A stretch of 48,537 nucleotides of DNA. It comes from Nostoc sp. TH1S01 (GTDB lineage: Bacteria; Cyanobacteriota; Cyanobacteriia; Cyanobacteriales; Nostocaceae). The stretch lies in the NCBI GenBank assembly GCA_018993265.1, contig JAGKSW010000168.1, positions 1-48,537 on the forward strand, read 5' to 3'. Made by a program: the position numbers and the translations under genes. The notes under the pieces were generated by a model. It did no database searches. It saw nothing but the letters and a program-made list of their open reading frames with translations, and was not told the origin of the DNA. Positions 9,142 through 43,044 of this stretch are shown in pieces (the stretch's first letter is position 1; each line of letters starts with the position of its first letter).

Positions 9142-10251
9142 ATGAACCAAAGACATTTGTGGACTATTGTCGCCTTGTTTGTGACTCTGACTGGGATACC
9201 CTCAATGGGTCGCACTCAAACTATCACTCAAACCACTAAAGAAACTCATCCAGTTTCTCAAAAATCATCTGATGGTGAAGTGGTTAAGGTAGGTGAGTAC
9301 CAATCCCCTACAGAGAATCAGAACTCGGATGCTGTGATTACAAGCATTCATTCTCACAGCATTGGAGGTCTTCAGGCGGCAACCCTGTACATCCGGAATA
9401 TACCAGTACTCACTTTTGTGAGTTCTAAGCCAGTTGCTAGTGGTGAAGCGAAACAAGGTGTTGTAGGAGAAGGACGGGGCGTGCAGTCGTACGCCCTTAT
9501 TGCTGAAAACTCAACTAAAGTGGCAAGTACTGGCAATGTAGTAAGTTCCAAAAACCAAGTCGGCACACTAGACAATGACCCGGTTCAAAGAGCTAGTGCG
9601 ATCGCAGCTAAAATTAACCAACTGATTCAAAACAACGTTGATGCCGAGCAGATTACGGTCAGTTGGAAAGATGAGAGCAAAACTGCCAATCAAGCCCAAG
9701 ATAAAAGCTCATCAGCACAGCAGCCTAGCGATCGCTATACAATCAAAATCAAAGACCAAGAATTGGTGGAAATCAACCAAAATACCCGCCTAGCAGATAC
9801 CACCAATAATCTGGCACAAGACGCATTACAAGCAACCAACCGCCTACGTAGACTCATTGGTAACGCATCTCCCATCGATAAAATCGCCAACTTACCATCG
9901 CGTTCACCATTGTCAATCCCACCGTTACCACAACAAATTGCCATTGGTAACGTCAGACTTACCTTTAGAGGCATGGCCTCCTTTTATGGCTATGATGGCT
10001 CAGGCAGCATGACAGCTAGTGGACAGAGATTTAATCCTGAAGCCATGACTGCTGCACACCGCACTTTACCCTTTGGTACAAGAGTTCGTGTCACCAACAC
10101 CCGTAATGGTCGTTCTGTCATAGTACGAATTAACGACCGTGGCCCATACATCCGGGGCCGAGTCATTGACTTATCTACTGCGGCTGCCCGCACTATCGGC
10201 ATGATTGGTAGTGGTGTAGCACCAGTGCATATCGAAGTACTGGGACGATAA
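9142..10251 (+). CDS. rlpA: RlpA-like septal ring lytic transglycosylase family protein
   Basis: About 369 residues from the ATG at 9142; an in-frame TTG at 9127 is less likely. It has a signal peptide ([23 protein letters not shown]) then a long Gln/Ser/Thr-rich linker (about 30-265). The C-terminal double-psi beta-barrel (about 275-369) has the family blocks '[21 protein letters not shown]' (split: [18 protein letters not shown]), '[16 protein letters not shown]', '[12 protein letters not shown]' and '[15 protein letters not shown]'. In Pseudomonas RlpA cleaves naked glycan strands at the septum; in cyanobacteria the role is presumably cell-wall remodelling in the periplasm. No lipobox cysteine is seen, so it is probably secreted and not a lipoprotein. 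Confidence 0.88.
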
Positions 10252-35100: not shown

Positions 35101-36969
35101 ATGTGTGGAATCGTCGGGTATATCGGCACTCAAGCAGCAACAGAAATTTTACTGTCTGGTCTAGAAAAACTAGAGTATAGAGGCTACGATTCTGCGGGAA
35201 TCGCCACAATTTGGGAAGGAGAAGTTAATTGTGTTAGAGCGAAAGGAAAACTACATAACCTGCGTTCTAAACTGGAACAGCTAGAAAACCCGTCTCAAAT
35301 CGGTATTGGTCATACTCGCTGGGCTACTCATGGTAAACCAGAAGAACACAATGCTCATCCACATTTAGATACAGCATTACGTATTGCGGTAGTTCAAAAT
35401 GGCATTGTGGAAAATTACCGCGAGTTACGCGAAGAATTAAAACAAAAAGGACATGAGTTTCGTTCGGAAACTGATACAGAAGTAATTCCCCATTTGATTG
35501 CGGAATTGTTAAAAAATCCGGCATTAAATTTTTTAGAAGCAGTTCGTCAAGCTGCTAACTATCTAGAAGGTGCATTTGCGATCGCAGTTATTTCGGCTGA
35601 TTATCCTGATGAATTAATTGTGGTGCGTCAACAAGCACCTTTAGTAATTGGATTTGGCCAGGGTGAATTTTTCTGTGCTTCCGATACCCCGGCGATCGTT
35701 GCATATACCCGTGCCGTATTACCCTTAGAAAACGGTGAAATTGCCCGCCTCACACCATTAGGCGTAGAAATTTATAACTTTGCTGGCGAGAGGTTGAAAA
35801 AACAACCCCGAATGCTCAACTTGAGTCCCACAATGGTCGAAAAGCAGGGATTCAAACACTTCATGCTCAAAGAAATTTACGAGCAACCAGGAGTGGTAAG
35901 AGCTAATTTAGAAGCATACTTTCATAATTCCAGTGATGCGTCTGTGTCGCCTATTAATCTCGGTTTGTCTGAGTCAGTTTACGCAGATTTAGAACAAATT
36001 CATATTGTCGCCTGTGGTACAAGTTGGCACGCTGCTTTGGTTGGCAAACACTTGTTAGAACAATTAGCAGAAATTCCCACCCAAGTACACTACGCTTCGG
36101 AATATCGTTATGCACCATCACCATTAACACCAAATACCTTAATTATTGGTGTTACCCAATCTGGTGAAACTGCTGATACTTTGGCAGCTTTAGCGATGGA
36201 AAAAGAACGCCGCCAAGGTCAAGAGGCGAAATATCAAGCGCGACTTTTAGGCATTACCAACCGCCCAGAAAGTAGCCTTGGTCATAGTGTACCGCATATT
36301 ATTAGTACCTTAGCGGGCATAGAAATTGGCGTAGCAGCGACAAAAACTTTTATCGCCCAATTGATGGCGTTTTATGCTTTAGCATTAGACTTAGCTGCCC
36401 GTCGTCAAACAATTTCAAAAGAAAAGATAGAGCAAATTATTAATGGTTTGCGACAAATTCCTCAAGAAATTGAAGAAACATTGGCAAGCCAAGAACGTTT
36501 AACAGAACACCTAGCCCACGAATTTGCTGATACTCAAGATTTCATCTTTTTAGGTAGAGGAATTAACTTCCCCATTGCGTTAGAAGGGGCTTTGAAATTA
36601 AAAGAAATTAGCTATATTCACGCCGAAGGTTATCCGGCTGGCGAAATGAAACACGGCCCCATTGCTTTATTAGATGCGAAAGTTCCGGTGGTGGCGATCG
36701 CTGTTCCTGGTAGTGTGTATGAAAAGGTAATTTCTAACGCCCAAGAAGCCAAAGCCAGAGATTCGCGGTTGATTGGTGTAACACCTGTAAAAGATGGCGA
36801 AGCAGGAGAAATATTTAACGATTTACTCCCCGTTTCATCAGTCGATGAATTATTATCGCCAATACTTACAGTTGTACCTCTGCAACTATTGGCTTATCAC
36901 ATCGCCGCCCGTCGCGGTTTAGACGTTGACCAGCCCCGGAATTTAGCAAAATCGGTGACTGTGGAATAA
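35101..36969 (+). CDS. glmS: Glutamine--fructose-6-phosphate aminotransferase (isomerising)
   Basis: 622 residues. It makes glucosamine-6-phosphate from fructose-6-phosphate and glutamine, the first step to UDP-GlcNAc for peptidoglycan and LPS. The class II glutaminase domain (about 2-230) starts with the catalytic cysteine in MCGIVGYIG and has 'GIGHTRWATHGKP' and 'VQNGIVENY'. Two SIS isomerase domains follow (about 290-430 and 465-600) with 'ACGTSWHA', 'TQSGETADTL', 'LGRGINFPIALEGALKLKEI' and the C-terminal 'DVDQPRNLAKSVTVE'. No glmS ribozyme is expected or seen. A terminator lies at 37019-37060. Confidence 0.98.
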   Translation: MCGIVGYIGTQAATEILLSGLEKLEYRGYDSAGIATIWEGEVNCVRAKGKLHNLRSKLEQLENPSQIGIGHTRWATHGKPEEHNAHPHLDTALRIAVVQNGIVENYRELREELKQKGHEFRSETDTEVIPHLIAELLKNPALNFLEAVRQAANYLEGAFAIAVISADYPDELIVVRQQAPLVIGFGQGEFFCASDTPAIVAYTRAVLPLENGEIARLTPLGVEIYNFAGERLKKQPRMLNLSPTMVEKQGFKHFMLKEIYEQPGVVRANLEAYFHNSSDASVSPINLGLSESVYADLEQIHIVACGTSWHAALVGKHLLEQLAEIPTQVHYASEYRYAPSPLTPNTLIIGVTQSGETADTLAALAMEKERRQGQEAKYQARLLGITNRPESSLGHSVPHIISTLAGIEIGVAATKTFIAQLMAFYALALDLAARRQTISKEKIEQIINGLRQIPQEIEETLASQERLTEHLAHEFADTQDFIFLGRGINFPIALEGALKLKEISYIHAEGYPAGEMKHGPIALLDAKVPVVAIAVPGSVYEKVISNAQEAKARDSRLIGVTPVKDGEAGEIFNDLLPVSSVDELLSPILTVVPLQLLAYHIAARRGLDVDQPRNLAKSVTVE

Positions 36970-37130: not shown

Positions 37131-40100
37131 TTAGCCACATACCAAATCCCATAGCAAATTTATTCCATATCCAACATATTCTGAATCTTGGTTCTCATTA
37201 ATCCATTGAGAAAGATTAATGACTACACTATGAGTTTTTTTGTCAATTTTATTCAGCGCATCTGCGGCAATAGAACGCACATCAGATTTTGAGTCTTTGA
37301 GAAGTTCTAGTAAGTCAGGAATTGCTACTTCTGCACCTATTTTACCTAACGCTTCTGTGGCAATAAAACGCACATCAGATTCTGAGTCTTTGAGGAGTTC
37401 TAGTAACTCAGGAATTGCGGCTTCTGCACCTATTTTACCTAACGCTTCTGCGGCAATAAAACGCACATCAGATTCTGGGTCTTTGAGGAGTTCGAGTAAC
37501 TCAGGGATTGCGGCGGCTGCACCTATTTTACCTAACGCAACTGCGGCAATAGAACGCACATTAGATTCTGAGTATTTGAGGAGTTCTAGTAAGCCAGAAA
37601 TTGCGGCTTCTGTACCTATTTGACCTAACGCTTCTGCGGCTCCAAAACGCACAATAAATTTTGAGTCTTTGAGAAGTTTTAGTAAGTCAGGAATTGCGGT
37701 TGCTGCACCTATTTTACCTAACGCTTCTGCGGCACTAGAACGCACATGAGATTCTGAGTCTTTGAGGAGTTCCAGTAAATCAGGAATTGTGGCTTCTGTA
37801 CCTATTTTACCTAACGCTTCTGCGGCACTAGAACGCACATGAGATTCTGAGTCTTTGAAGAGTTCTAGTAAATCAGGAATTGCGGCTTCTGTACCTATTT
37901 TACCTAACGCAATTGTGGCACTATTACGCACAATAAATTTTGAATCTTTGAGAAGTTCTAGTAAATCAGGAATTGCGGCTTCTGTACCTATTTTACCTAA
38001 CGCTTCTGCGGCACTAGAACGCACATTAGATTCGGAGTTTTGGAGGAGTTCTAGTAATTTATTAACTGCCGCATCTTCCTCTCCTAACGCTGCACAATAT
38101 TCTTGAAATCTTACTTGTTCTATTTGTTGCTCTTTCTCTTTTAACAGTTGCAAAGCTTGAGATTGAAAAGCTGTTTCGTTCAAGCTACATAAAATTTGAA
38201 ACACTTGTGATTTAATTCGAGAACTAACTTGCAACAAATCACTGACTTCAAGATTTACTAAATCTTGCAAAATTTCTATAGCTGGAGAATCTTTGGCAGT
38301 TTTTAAATTTTTGATATCTTCAGCAAGGCAATTCCCAGCAAATAATAAGTCACGATGCAACCATCGTTCATATTCGCTATTCTTGCTAAGAACTCTTTTA
38401 ATGGCTGTAGCCGCTTTATTTGGTGCTTGCTGAGTAATTAATAGCAGTAATACCTCTCGCCAATGAGGGTCATGGAGATGCTGATCAATATACTGTAAAA
38501 CAATCTCAAAATCATCTTGATCATCTGCTTGATAATTAATCTCTCTAGCACACAGATATTCTTGAAATGTTTTATGCACAAAAGCATAGCAATCTTGGCC
38601 TTGTTCATTAAGTAGTCCAGTACGTTCCTGAATTAAACTTAAAAACCGTTTGGCTTTTTCTTCTGCTTTATAAAGTTCAATTTCTTTCAAAGATTTGATT
38701 TCTCTTTTTAATTTGTCAAGTAAATCTTCACAAGCAATTAGTGTTCCCCCTTCTTTATCTGCTGTACTACCTTGTTCATGAATCCAAAAAGCTATTTTTT
38801 GCATTAAAAATAGCAAGTCTTCAATATCAATATCTTGTAAGAAATGGTTGACGCTAATTTCTTTATTAGCATCCCAAGAAGTTAGGAGAGTTTCTACGGC
38901 TTTCTCATAAAGTTTGTGACGACCTTTAGGTAAAACTGCTTGATAGCGATGAATCAAAGCAATAATAGTCAACAGCAAAGGGTTACGTGCTAGTAATTTG
39001 AGACGCTCATTTTTATTTAATGCTTCTCTTAAAGTTGTTTTACGTCGTTCTGCTTCTGATTTATCCTGAATACGGCTGTCATACCAACAATTAATAAACT
39101 TTTCTATTTTCTCATCATCAAAAGCTAAAAGCTCGTAATGGGCAAACTCTTGAGTATTAAAAAAATCACGTTTATAGCCAGCAGGGCGAGAGGTAATAAC
39201 TGCACAATTTTTCGGAAACTGCCCTAAAAAATTCTCAATTTTACGCACTACCTCATATCGTTTATTTTCTTGAGCAATTTCATCCAAACCATCAAAAAAG
39301 ATAAAAGTATGTCCATCTTCTAACCAATATTCAAAAAAACCTACAGGTAAGGTTTTAACACATAAATTTTTTTCAACAAATTGCTTAACATATTCAATAA
39401 CGCTAGTATTTTCGTGCCTAGCAAAATCTCGTATAGGAATTATAAGAGGTAAATAATCTGCTGCTGCTGTTATATTTAGTTGATCAATCTGCTTCTGAGC
39501 TATCATCACCACAAAATAACTCAGCAAGGTAGTTTTTCCAGAGCCAGGCGCACCTAAAAGCACAAACTTTTGGCAGTTGCTTTGACTTAAAATTTGGGAA
39601 GCCAACAATTTTCTCCCAGAAGAGTTGCGTAAAGCACGCTGTCTTTGTTCCCAAAGTAATTGTTGCTGATTTTGACTCAAATTCGATGAAAACAACTCTG
39701 TTTCTATGCTGGAGTTAAAATTATTTATATCATTTTGATTATCCTCCTGCACTTCTGGCAACACAAAAATATTGACTAGCTTCTCTGATTTTTCTAATTC
39801 TTGTCCTGGTACAGCAATCCCAGCAAATTTAACATCATCAAACCAATTTAATAATTGCTGACAATAGTTTTCTTTAGCAATCTGAAACCTTATACAATTA
39901 TCTGTATTTTGAAAATAAGTTGTAACAAAAACCTCCATCCATGAATTAACATAGTCAATTTTAATTTCTTTCATTTTTGAGTCAGCTAAAGCTGCTTTTT
40001 TAAAAACCTCAACTAAAAACTCTAAATCAGGCCTTCCCTCATCTTTTAATGGTTTCTGTAGCTCCGACAATCCTTGTTCCTTAAAAAAATTACATAAAAA

Positions 40101-40292
40101 TTTTGGGATAAAGTCTGGTGGACAAGAATAAAATAATCGGGTTTCTTGATTACAAGCTTCTATAGTTGCAGTTTTAATCGCCTTATCTAAATCACTAGGG
40201 TTAAGTTTGCTGGTAACACCACTTAGCAAAGCTTTAGAAACTTCTACTGTGGCAAATTCTCCTAGCCATGCACCAATCGTTGCACTAATCAC
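37131..40292 (-). CDS. NACHT-family NTPase with C-terminal HEAT repeats
   Basis: 1053 residues. An N-terminal region of about 230 residues without a recognised domain is followed by a NACHT module: Walker A 'GAPGSGKTT' (247-255), Walker B 'FIFFDGLDE' (330-338), sensor-like 'VITSRPAGY' (365-373), 'LLARNPLLLTIIALIH' (433-448) and the winged-helix 'FVHKTFQEYLCA' (571-582). Nine 31-residue HEAT units (744-1022) of the PBS-lyase-like type end the protein. This is the layout of STAND signalling ATPases, where the repeats sense a ligand and the NACHT oligomerises. Bacterial NACHT proteins include antiphage proteins. A defence role is possible but not shown. No nuclease or protease effector is visible at either end. 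Confidence 0.9.
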   Translation of the reverse strand: MISATIGAWLGEFATVEVSKALLSGVTSKLNPSDLDKAIKTATIEACNQETRLFYSCPPDFIPKFLCNFFKEQGLSELQKPLKDEGRPDLEFLVEVFKKAALADSKMKEIKIDYVNSWMEVFVTTYFQNTDNCIRFQIAKENYCQQLLNWFDDVKFAGIAVPGQELEKSEKLVNIFVLPEVQEDNQNDINNFNSSIETELFSSNLSQNQQQLLWEQRQRALRNSSGRKLLASQILSQSNCQKFVLLGAPGSGKTTLLSYFVVMIAQKQIDQLNITAAADYLPLIIPIRDFARHENTSVIEYVKQFVEKNLCVKTLPVGFFEYWLEDGHTFIFFDGLDEIAQENKRYEVVRKIENFLGQFPKNCAVITSRPAGYKRDFFNTQEFAHYELLAFDDEKIEKFINCWYDSRIQDKSEAERRKTTLREALNKNERLKLLARNPLLLTIIALIHRYQAVLPKGRHKLYEKAVETLLTSWDANKEISVNHFLQDIDIEDLLFLMQKIAFWIHEQGSTADKEGGTLIACEDLLDKLKREIKSLKEIELYKAEEKAKRFLSLIQERTGLLNEQGQDCYAFVHKTFQEYLCAREINYQADDQDDFEIVLQYIDQHLHDPHWREVLLLLITQQAPNKAATAIKRVLSKNSEYERWLHRDLLFAGNCLAEDIKNLKTAKDSPAIEILQDLVNLEVSDLLQVSSRIKSQVFQILCSLNETAFQSQALQLLKEKEQQIEQVRFQEYCAALGEEDAAVNKLLELLQNSESNVRSSAAEALGKIGTEAAIPDLLELLKDSKFIVRNSATIALGKIGTEAAIPDLLELFKDSESHVRSSAAEALGKIGTEATIPDLLELLKDSESHVRSSAAEALGKIGAATAIPDLLKLLKDSKFIVRFGAAEALGQIGTEAAISGLLELLKYSESNVRSIAAVALGKIGAAAAIPELLELLKDPESDVRFIAAEALGKIGAEAAIPELLELLKDSESDVRFIATEALGKIGAEVAIPDLLELLKDSKSDVRSIAADALNKIDKKTHSVVINLSQWINENQDSEYVGYGINLLWDLVCG
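37227..38063. repeat. Nine tandem 93-bp units encoding HEAT repeats
   Basis: Each unit encodes a 31-residue HEAT motif (PDLLELLKDSES-VRSSAAEALGKIG). The DNA units are highly alike, with whole blocks shared between neighbours (for example AGTCTTTGAG(A/G)AGTTCTAGTAA). That suggests recent duplication or gene conversion. Confidence 0.9.
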
Positions 40293-41220: not shown

Positions 41221-41588
41221 TTAAATTTTGGTGATTATTTTTTCCCACTGCTCAATCTGGTGCTGTAGTTGTAATTGGCGATCGCTCAAATCTTGACTAT
41301 CACCAACAGACAAATTCTGATCGCTCAATCGCTCACGGTAAAGAGAAATCAGTTCGGTTAGGGCTTTTTTATTGCTTGCTTATCCTCCTGAGTCAGAGAA
41401 CTCACATTGACTGAAATCAGCTTTCTGCCAATTCTCTCCACAAATTCAGACCGACTTAAATCCATACTGTCGGCGATCGCATCTAATCCTTCAATCGCGG
41501 TAGGAGTTAGGGCTAGGTTAACTCGTTTCTTCACCTCATCATACAGTTCTGGTACGTCTTTTTGACCTTTTTGCCCTTTCTTACCCAT
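41221..41588 (-). CDS. Ribbon-helix-helix protein with -1 frameshift (two overlapping frames)
   Basis: Frame 1 (41588 to stop at 41360-41358) gives 76 residues with a basic N-terminus and an RHH/CopG-like segment 'RVNLALTPTAIEGLDAIADS' and 'LSRSEFVERIGRKLI'. The -1 frame continues without interruption from the end of frame 1 for 47 more residues to the stop at 41223-41221: 'ALTELISLYRERLSDQNLSV', then a Gln-rich helix ending 'QIEQWEKIITKI'. Joining at the heptamer A-AAA-AAG (41370-41364) gives a 122-residue protein. Either this is programmed frameshifting, a recent one-base loss in an A run, or a sequencing error. RHH proteins are usually small DNA-binding repressors or antitoxins; no toxin gene is adjacent. 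Confidence 0.75.
41364..41389 (-). promoter_or_regulatory. Candidate programmed -1 frameshift signal
   Basis: On the minus strand AGGAGG (41389-41384) lies 13 bases before A-AAA-AAG (41370-41364), which is in the right phase (ATA AAA AAG). This is the arrangement of the E. coli dnaX frameshift site. No strong downstream stem was seen by eye. Confidence 0.5.
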
Positions 41589-41676
41589 TGCCGTCTTCTA
41601 TCTCAAAATTTCCCCAGCATAACTGAAGAACTAGAATAATTATGCTTGAGCGCAACTTGGTATCAGACAACGCACT

Positions 41677-43044
41677 CTAGTCTTTTTTCCCCTCATCTCC
41701 CAACATCCGCAGTAATTTTCTTGCAACTAAAACACTCACTACCCCAGCACCTACTAACTCCACAGCCTGTACAACTTTTTTACCTACGTCGTGAGGGTCA
41801 AGATGGTGATGAAATACTTCTTCATCCAGCCATTCTGTTGTGGCTTTAAAGTCATGAATTGGGCTTGGTAATAGTGTTAAATAAGTACCTTGACGAATTA
41901 AATGTGCAGTTTCACCTACCACTTCAAACAGGTTGAATAAGTTAGCAGCAGCGTCATTAACTCCCAACTTGAGCAAAGTTCCCCGGATATTAACCTTAGC
42001 TGGTTTGGGGTTTTCTCCAAGAGCGAGTGCTTTCAAATTATGAGCAATATTTGCGCCTTGTTGATAAGCGACTTGCGCTGTAGGTGGTAACGAACTATCA
42101 ACAACTGCTGCACAATCACCGCCTGCAAATACTTCTGGAAAATCGAGCAATTGCATCGTGGGAGTAACTAATGGACGGTGATGATGATCCCGATGTTCTT
42201 TGGGGATGGGTAAATCTTGAATTAGGGGATGGATAGAAGTACCAGCAGTCCAGATTGTCGTGTGTGTTGGTAGTGTTTTAATTTCATCATTAATTTTATA
42301 TTCAATTGCATTGGGACGAACAGCAGTGGCTTCTGCGCCTGAGATGGTTTCAATCGAGATAGTCCGTTTTTGTAATTCTTTTTCAGCAATTGGACGCAAG
42401 GGATCGTTAATATCACCATCGAGAATTTTTTGACCATGATTGAGCAGAAGCAACCGAATTTCTTGAGAATTACCACCTAAAGCACTATACCAATGCGGGA
42501 GGAAATCAGCTAAAGTGGCGGCCATTTCCACACCAGATGCACCACCACCAACTACAACTACTGTTAACAGTTTGCGGCGTTGTTCTATATCTTCTGTTTG
42601 AATAGCTGTTTGTAAACAGTCCCGTAAATGTTTATCAAGTGCGATCGCATCTGCTTGTGTCCAAAACGGAAAGGCATGTTCTTTAGCACCTTCAACGTAA
42701 TGATAGCCAGTTACACTACCCAAAGCTAATACTAAATTACTGTAATTGTAAGAGTTACCCGAAACTAATTTCACTTCCCTTTGATGCAAGTCTATTGACT
42801 GTACTGTATCCTGCACAAAGATGACCCCACTCCCTTTAAGTAATTCCGAAAAACGCGGCACTACTTGAATCGAATCCATCTCGCCATCAAAATATTCATA
42901 AAGCAATGGCTTAAAGCAAAATCGCTCATTTTTATCAATCAAAATTACAGAACGTGGATAATGCTCATGAGCTAAATGTAAGGCAGTAAATAATCCAGTA
43001 AACCCACCACCGATAATTACTGTTTGATAAACTGGGCTGTTCAT
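41677..43044 (-). CDS. Type II NADH dehydrogenase (NDH-2)-like FAD oxidoreductase
   Basis: 455 residues. Two dinucleotide-binding motifs are present: 'VIIGGGFTGLFTAL' (9-22, FAD) and 'VVVVGGGASGVEMAATL' (NADH). 'TTIWTAGTSIHPLI' and 'PEVFAGGDCAAV' are typical of NDH-2, and a C-terminal region with 'VVQAVELVGAGVVSVLVARK' could attach to the membrane. NDH-2 passes electrons from NAD(P)H to quinone without pumping protons. It is the last gene in the same direction as the oxidase operon, 71 bp after the small membrane protein gene, so it may supply the oxidase with reduced quinone. Substrate preference (NADH or NADPH) is not known. Confidence 0.88.
   Translation of the reverse strand: MNSPVYQTVIIGGGFTGLFTALHLAHEHYPRSVILIDKNERFCFKPLLYEYFDGEMDSIQVVPRFSELLKGSGVIFVQDTVQSIDLHQREVKLVSGNSYNYSNLVLALGSVTGYHYVEGAKEHAFPFWTQADAIALDKHLRDCLQTAIQTEDIEQRRKLLTVVVVGGGASGVEMAATLADFLPHWYSALGGNSQEIRLLLLNHGQKILDGDINDPLRPIAEKELQKRTISIETISGAEATAVRPNAIEYKINDEIKTLPTHTTIWTAGTSIHPLIQDLPIPKEHRDHHHRPLVTPTMQLLDFPEVFAGGDCAAVVDSSLPPTAQVAYQQGANIAHNLKALALGENPKPAKVNIRGTLLKLGVNDAAANLFNLFEVVGETAHLIRQGTYLTLLPSPIHDFKATTEWLDEEVFHHHLDPHDVGKKVVQAVELVGAGVVSVLVARKLLRMLGDEGKKD

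Follow-up and report, generated by a model that had tools for sequence, protein, structure and literature searches.

Programmed −1 frameshifting probably yields two forms of a regulator of type I-B CRISPR-associated transposons (CASTs) from one small gene of Nostoc sp. TH1S01, namely a ribbon-helix-helix (RHH) protein and the same protein extended by a helical hairpin, a reading to which a probability of roughly three in four can be given. The gene was found in the window, i.e., the whole stretch of 48,537 nucleotides that was analysed, which is an entire contig. Its two-frame layout, its conservation, the constraint on its tail, the location of its relatives in CASTs and the operator-like sites beside them were established by sequence comparison.

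On the minus strand, a 0-frame ORF at 41358–41588 (recognised from the sequence, the ORF list, the Pfam RHH_1 profile and orthologues) encodes an RHH (CopG-type) protein of 76 residues, the short product. It ends with ATA AAA AAG CCC TAA, in which the slippery heptamer A_AAA_AAG (41364–41370) stands in the 0 frame and the stop codon TAA (41358–41360) is the second codon past it. The −1 frame, whose first residues are ALTELISLYRERL, is open from 41364 for 47 codons up to a stop codon at 41223–41221; this tail (41221–41364 with its stop) is predicted to form a helical hairpin, as judged from the sequence, constraint, single-frame fusions and an AlphaFold2 model of one such fusion. An internal Shine-Dalgarno-like AGGAGG (41384–41389) lies 13 nt ahead of the heptamer. 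All three elements, i.e., the 76-residue frame with this ending, the 47-codon extension and the position of AGGAGG, had been described in an earlier note made from the window alone, and all were confirmed. An open −1 frame is in itself common: among 152 window ORFs (stop-to-stop, at least 60 codons), 19 have at least 46 such codons beyond the stop, as do 409 of 2102 ORFs of the same kind in 33 context loci (L159–L191), which are not independent of one another. In the 23 long ORFs of the window, with the two-frame gene left out, an in-frame A_AAA_AAG occurs once per 11,514 codon positions. A single one of the 152 window ORFs has it inside the last five codons, with an open −1 frame as well, and this must be the two-frame gene; nine of the 2102 context ORFs end on it, and all nine are open-framed and are the two-frame gene. 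Within the window and the 33 context loci, the combination of heptamer and open −1 frame was therefore seen in this gene only.

A search of 100 relatives and 217 family genomes, together with one scan of genome contigs, found close copies in 12 genomes besides that of the window. The 13 genomes carry six genus labels, and the organisms of seven of the loci are Nostoc sp. FACHB-152, N. parmelioides, Calothrix membranacea, Dendronalium phyllosphericum, Nostoc sp. LPT, N. calcicola, and N. carneum. RHH identity is 71–95% in 11 copies; in the twelfth, the interrupted gene of G140, it is 63% over residues 22–75. The counts exclude two remnants, namely a decayed copy in G247, the tail of which contains a stop, and a tail without RHH part in G044. 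In all 13 genomes, the 0-frame stop is the second to fifth codon past AAA AAG, the −1 tail is 47 to 64 codons long, and GGAGG is found at −25 from the heptamer end. The heptamer itself is kept in 12 of the 13; the exception, G171, has C_AAA_AAG, at which the first tRNA would be unable to re-pair fully, and this counts against the slippage model. Comparison with orthologues, which the earlier note had named as a check, thus found the two-frame layout in all 12 other genomes and the heptamer in 11, so that the note's interpretation of a programmed −1 site is supported at the level of sequence; its proposal of a dnaX-like upstream stimulator likewise gains from the fixed position of GGAGG. In G140, the RHH gene is split (L190, 7395–9836): the first 24 residues are encoded from 7395 and the remainder from about 9679, and the sequence between the two parts includes a match to a group II intron (RF00029) at 9600–9677. 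Splicing could therefore come before frameshifting in this genome.

Within the Shine-Dalgarno-like sequence, the codon that precedes GAG has G as its third base in all 13 genomes, though the residue it encodes is Q, L, E or G. Codons with a final G are used in a minority of cases in the window (CAG 0.25, GAG 0.20, AAG 0.21; ATA accounts for 0.16 of Ile codons), and it appears that such a codon is kept because the Shine-Dalgarno-like sequence requires the G. An exact-pattern search for the 16S 3′ end gave no match in the assembly, and pairing of AGGAGG with 16S rRNA is thus assumed. The window's genome has a tRNA-Lys with the anticodon CUU, and a pattern search of the same genome returned no match for tRNA-Lys UUU; since tRNA-Lys(CUU) reads AAG without wobble, slippage is expected to be lower than in E. 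coli. Downstream of the heptamer, folds of the first 42 nt reach −7.5 kcal/mol or lower in 10 of the 13 genomes, one of these (G045) being placed elsewhere, and are weak in the window (−4.0 kcal/mol), G003 (−2.6), and G108 (−3.2). The register of this hairpin varies between clades, and fold z-scores of the +5 to +55 region are negative in all 13 genomes, from −0.66 (window) to −3.11. Support for a conserved downstream RNA structure is partial, and it was set aside as evidence: RNAalifold (10 sequences) gave a long-range stem with mostly invariant pairs, and the local hairpin changes register.

Tail and RHH profiles were also run over a sample of 388 genomes of the order and 388 of the class, and distant homologues appear to reach the same RHH-tail junction by several recoding routes. 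A −1 shift at A_AAA_AAG recurs in G595, and also in G263 and G080, where the RHH_1 domain ahead of it is of another type but clear (39 bits); in other genomes, the −1 site is G_GGA_AAG (G314 and one G279 copy, L091) or G_GGA_AAA (two further G279 copies, G402, G696, and G719), or the phase is −1 with G_GGG_GAA or an indistinct site (G304, G433, G410, and G148). A +1 phase was found at TCC_AAA_AGT (G778, G617, G666, G427, and a second copy in G304) and at ACC_AAA_AGT (G422). RHH and tail share a single frame in G557 and G816 (both near the two-frame G595) and in G083; such genes show that the family naturally encodes RHH joined to the tail. The tail profile pointed to 23 places in the order, of which 10 are two-frame −1 genes (four of the main clade), three are two-frame +1 genes, six are decayed or fragments (G247, G044, G373:C29, G511, and two in G073), one has some 580 nt between RHH and tail (G385), and three seem unrelated (G455; G319 and G378 at guessed coordinates). 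Coordinates are approximate for three truncated loci, L084, L086, and L087, of which L084 is excluded. The 24 places in the class comprise two counted before, three new −1, three new +1, two single-frame, and seven decayed or fragmentary genes, seven further places (L132, L134–L138, and L142) being left out of the tally.

RHH loci were tallied where they could be properly placed (33 of 40; L111, L118, L051, L052, L073, L117, and L050 were left out). A −1 tail is found in six of them, three with a canonical heptamer (L101, L113, and L097, the last already among the tail-profile places) and three without it (L107, L114, and L053), one is single-frame (L011), four have a decayed tail, and 22 are tail-less; judged by this tally, most RHH relatives seem to have no tail. 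Several RHH-domain relatives (L093–L096, L098, L099, and L065) form single-frame fusions with a longer domain, which in L065 is GIY-YIG-like (17.6 bits, under the cut-off); L065 adjoins TnsA-TnsB-like, TnsC-like, and Cas6-like genes. Two loci of G073 (L127 and L139) hold the latter half of the tail by itself (GDRIQQLQQQI...); no upstream RHH frame was seen in either, and this half resembles a repeat in its own right, around a GCGATCGC site. The two-frame gene can escape annotation: on the Gloeocapsa sp. PCC 7428 plasmid pGLO7428.03 (L143, 3501–3716), it has no feature among the PLSDB entries listed.

Among the other explanations, the one that survives best, although it is unlikely, is termination at the 0-frame stop followed by reinitiation a few bases on, in which case the tail would be a separate small protein. 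Indeed, a CTG, TTG or ATG stands at +11 in the tail frame in all 13 genomes (six, five, and two, respectively), and this codon overlaps the stop, as TTGA, in G221 and G211. However, CTG, the codon of six genomes including the window's, is a rare start, and GGAGG lies about 31 nt upstream of the +11 codon, too distant for initiation. Reinitiation would also drop the first four tail residues, which are well conserved, and it leaves unexplained the conserved heptamer, the G_GGA_AAR sites elsewhere, and the single-frame fusions.

The tail itself appears to be under purifying selection, as judged from codon alignments of 12 genomes. Its pN/pS is 0.55 over the whole tail and 0.49 on 47 gap-free codons, and that of the RHH part is 0.23, i.e., the tail is the less constrained of the two; neutral HKY simulation on the same tree gave a mean tail pN/pS of 0.76, and 3 of 400 runs reached 0.49. 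Both frames thus bear the mark of protein-level selection across orthologues (0.23 for RHH; 0.49 against a neutral 0.76 for the tail). The remaining two frames of the tail region contain two to nine stops in every one of the 13 genomes. Conservation is concentrated in the helical stretches ALTELI and QIEQWEKI, and the tail varies in its middle and at its end. Tail codon 5 (Leu or Met) is CTG, TTG or ATG in all 13 genomes, and the commonest Leu codon of the window is TTA. These data bear on the explanation that an ancestor lost a base near the junction and that the tail is a decaying leftover of a fixed frameshift mutation. Single-frame homologues do exist, mobile elements often decay, and several loci, including the near relative in G247, are visibly broken. 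Nonetheless, none of the 400 neutral runs kept all 12 tails open, and the same junction has been kept by many lineages with different slippery sequences; conservation thus largely refutes decay, which is left with a very small probability.

Slightly less credible still is transcriptional slippage, in which RNA polymerase would supply the second frame on the A run. Such slippage is known for longer runs (more than seven A's) and, in the part of PMC3711429 that is available, is argued for dnaX genes with as few as seven. The run here is of six A's, and of five in G171, the GGGAAAA or GGGAAAG of other lineages offers at most four, and the conserved internal Shine-Dalgarno sequence has no evident transcriptional role. 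Finally, although homopolymers are prone to error, a sequencing or assembly error in the run (six A's for seven), which the earlier note had kept as an alternative, has a negligible chance of being correct, since the six A's are identical in 12 of 13 genomes under six genus labels and none of the 12 orthologues has seven A's in one frame.

At the protein level, the 0-frame product matches Pfam RHH_1 (PF01402) with an E-value of 6.2e-4 and 20.1 bits, against a cut-off of 20.5. The scores of homologues are 23.7 bits for L065, 20.0 for G557, 15.2 for G279, and 39 for G263, which has the other RHH type, and the N-terminal domains of G666, G304 (C166), and G778 matched no Pfam family. Not every N-terminal domain in the family may thus be taken, from sequence, as a proven RHH. 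For the tail, DUF1216 was the sole Pfam match, at E 0.06 and under its cut-off. In the AlphaFold2 model of the G557 fusion, the junction (after residue 71) lies within a helix of residues 63–85, followed by a second helix of residues 98–118; pLDDT block means are 84–95 for residues 61–120 and below 50 for residues 1–24, no strand was modelled, and a Foldseek search with the model gave no PDB match at E ≤0.001. As the junction lies within one helix, the short product would end in mid-helix.

The genomic context of the relatives indicates the element in which the gene resides. CAST genes accompany the RHH-tail gene in all 12 other genomes, in fragmentary form in G003 (scant cas7 and cas8), G221 (without cas7 or cas5 and with part of tnsC and of cas8), and G211 (without tnsC and with scant tniQ). 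The gene order is TnsC, TniQ, Cas6, Cas8, Cas7, Cas5, the RHH gene (on the opposite strand), and TnsD; in G108, other genes separate cas5 from the RHH gene. Neighbour profiles matched TnsD (E 2.8e-117), Cas5, Cas6, and TnsC; Cas7 matches type I-B Cst2, and Cas8 matches Cas8a1. tnsD adjoins the gene in 11 of the 12 genomes (truncated or incomplete in G045 and G140), the contig of G003 stopping earlier, and the interval from cas5 to the RHH gene holds a CRISPR array in all four loci examined for it. A divergent fifth CRISPR repeat in L183 (9688–9727), 213 nt past the fourth and near the end of the tail frame, is possibly part of an atypical guide. glmS is present on the same stretch in four of the 12 relatives (G003, G045, G211, and G221) and in G247, and most of the other stretches may stop short of it. 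Type I-B1 CASTs are cyanobacterial elements described, in the available part of PMC11406308, as having a glmS-homing TnsD, and the main clade can accordingly be read as I-B1-like. A transposase identity for the frameshift gene was considered and rejected, as the window has no tns/cas similarity and the product is RHH-like.

Of 208 family genomes searched, 11 encode a TnsD with 60% or more identity to the query, and the two-frame gene adjoins it in 10; the eleventh, G039, has a different, HTH-like gene in the RHH position (L222, 10226–10567, an ORF judged HTH-like by eye, at the RHH gene's usual place in a type I-B CAST), next to what is presumably a DUF262-like gene. G110 has cas genes, with neither such a TnsD nor an RHH match in the stretch read. 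G039 and G110 thus have type I-B CAST genes without the RHH-tail gene in the stretches read. A tblastn search of 38 sequences for Cas12k at 1e-4 gave no match in the main-clade stretches or the window, the only matches being in L169 and L159, around distant members. These Cas12k genes (NCBIfam NF038191; L169, 4465–6372, and L159, 13043–15286) are located within a few kb of distant two-frame members, some of which may therefore be V-K CAST regulators or cargo.

Between the gene and tnsD, the relatives carry candidate operators. In all 11 relatives with 400 nt of upstream sequence, twin near-palindromic sites like AGGYATTACACAATRCCTA (at most three mismatches) occur 129–139 and 95–105 nt before the RHH ATG, spaced by 34–36, and a two-mismatch scan gave no further match in these loci except an overlapping one on the opposite strand in G254. 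No twin sites were found in the window, in G003 (165 nt available), or in G039, which is without the RHH-tail gene. This co-occurrence with the gene suggests binding of the candidate sites by the RHH protein, and it is probable, from sequence evidence, that the protein binds the twin AGGYATTACACAATRCCTA-like sites between its gene and tnsD.

The copy in the window has a different setting. No tns/cas similarity was found at 1e-4 within the 48.5 kb, and the sole CAST-like DNA around the gene, glmS and its flank aside, is the stretch 41222–41596 on the minus strand (blastn, 90–94% to L187, L188, and L185). It ends 8 nt upstream of the ATG, and the operator-like sites and tnsD are thus absent. glmS, known from the ORF list at 35101–36969 on the plus strand, lies 4.4 kb from the two-frame gene; Tn7 and type I-B1 CASTs use it as their attachment gene (PMC11406308, in its available part, for glmS targeting). 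The gene in between (37131–40292) encodes a protein of 1053 aa that has HEAT-type repeats and weakly matches the NACHT protein EruA, and its DNA repeats in register every 93 bp, with nine copies of at least 61% identity. G247 has glmS and the HEAT-repeat gene as in the window, and its RHH-tail gene is present in pieces only. By sequence, the window copy is thus an intact orphan near glmS, without twin sites, and it may be a relic. A gene on the same strand (41677–43044) precedes it by 88 nt, a spacing from which we infer that the two might be cotranscribed.

For the conserved gene, the mechanism that we infer comprises slipping, both products, DNA binding, and control of tnsD. The ribosome would translate the RHH protein as far as A_AAA_AAG, where pairing of the just-translated AGGAGG with 16S rRNA would pause or strain it. 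A fraction of ribosomes would then slip back by one base, with the tRNAs re-pairing on AAA AAA, and read 47–64 more codons, and the non-slipping ribosomes would meet the stop, which is the second to fifth codon past the heptamer. A single mRNA would thereby yield both a short RHH form, which breaks off within a predicted helix, and a long form that includes a helical hairpin. The role of the gene would be that of a regulator residing in a glmS-homing type I-B CAST. Transcription of the gene in the relatives runs away from tnsD, and binding at the twin sites would set expression both of tnsD, i.e., of the homing pathway, and of the regulator itself. The ratio of short to long form would tune oligomerisation or partner binding. 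A broader proposal, which we put forward tentatively and consider rather doubtful, is that recoding acts as a control knob across a family of CAST and mobile-element regulators: the slipping share (−1 or +1 by lineage) would set the short-to-long ratio of the repressor on the twin sites upstream of tnsD and hence the choice between glmS homing and silence, and orphan copies such as that of the window, retained after loss of the element, could be domesticated repressors that guard glmS against new CASTs.

Several known systems resemble this gene in part. In E. coli dnaX, an SD-like sequence upstream of the slippery site acts as a stimulator, which the AGGAGG described here parallels. The dnaX gene also has an in-frame A_AAA_AAG (PMC3711429, in its available part) and two products with a common N-terminus. 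However, the dnaX frameshift yields the shorter product (in the same part of PMC3711429), whereas that of the RHH-tail gene would yield the longer one; the downstream hairpin of the RHH-tail gene is not consistently kept, and the protein and its biology are different. The transposases of the IS1 and IS3 families likewise depend on a programmed −1 shift in a transposable-element gene, with A_AAA_AAG in use according to the descriptions available, but there the shift gives a transposase and here it would give a second form of a putative repressor. In phage lambda gpG/gpGT, a tail-assembly chaperone, a slip at G_GGA_AAG extends the protein by an extra domain; this is the heptamer of the distant members G314 and G279 (L091), although the protein family is different, and to our knowledge gpG/gpGT has no internal Shine-Dalgarno sequence.

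Small DNA-binding regulators of cyanobacterial V-K CASTs have been described, namely CvkR, Arc_1, and Arc_2, of which Arc_1 and Arc_2 are RHH proteins; the Arc proteins are of 53–72 aa and are nearly all reverse-oriented upstream of cas12k (PMC9938897, in its available part, the main text of which does not contain the word frameshift). By these descriptions, as far as they are available, the main clade is set apart, as it belongs to type I-B CASTs and lies beside tnsD, not upstream of cas12k. PMC3711429 reports 146 GeneTack clusters, and in its main text, as available, the terms ribbon, CopG, and antitoxin are absent. No such gene was seen in the available parts of PMC5009743, PMC10293859, and PMC4066793, and no description of the RHH-tail gene was found in the open-access literature, as partly available, on frameshifting, RHH/CopG/antitoxin proteins, cyanobacteria/Nostoc, or CASTs. 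Programmed frameshifting is thus known, and what appears to be new is its use in a CAST-resident RHH regulator and the presence of several recoding routes within one family.

Transposases, phage genes, prfB, and dnaX make up most of the well-studied bacterial frameshift genes; the RHH-tail frameshift gene is conserved, short, and convergent. Since two kinds of −1 site, a +1 phase, and direct fusions all give one RHH-tail junction, it becomes possible to ask why recoding is used over fusion. The in situ control of CASTs, which serve as genome-engineering tools, is described as largely unknown in the available part of PMC9938897, and the present analysis names a candidate regulator and candidate operators for type I-B CASTs. 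The slip may help to control when these CRISPR-guided transposons jump.
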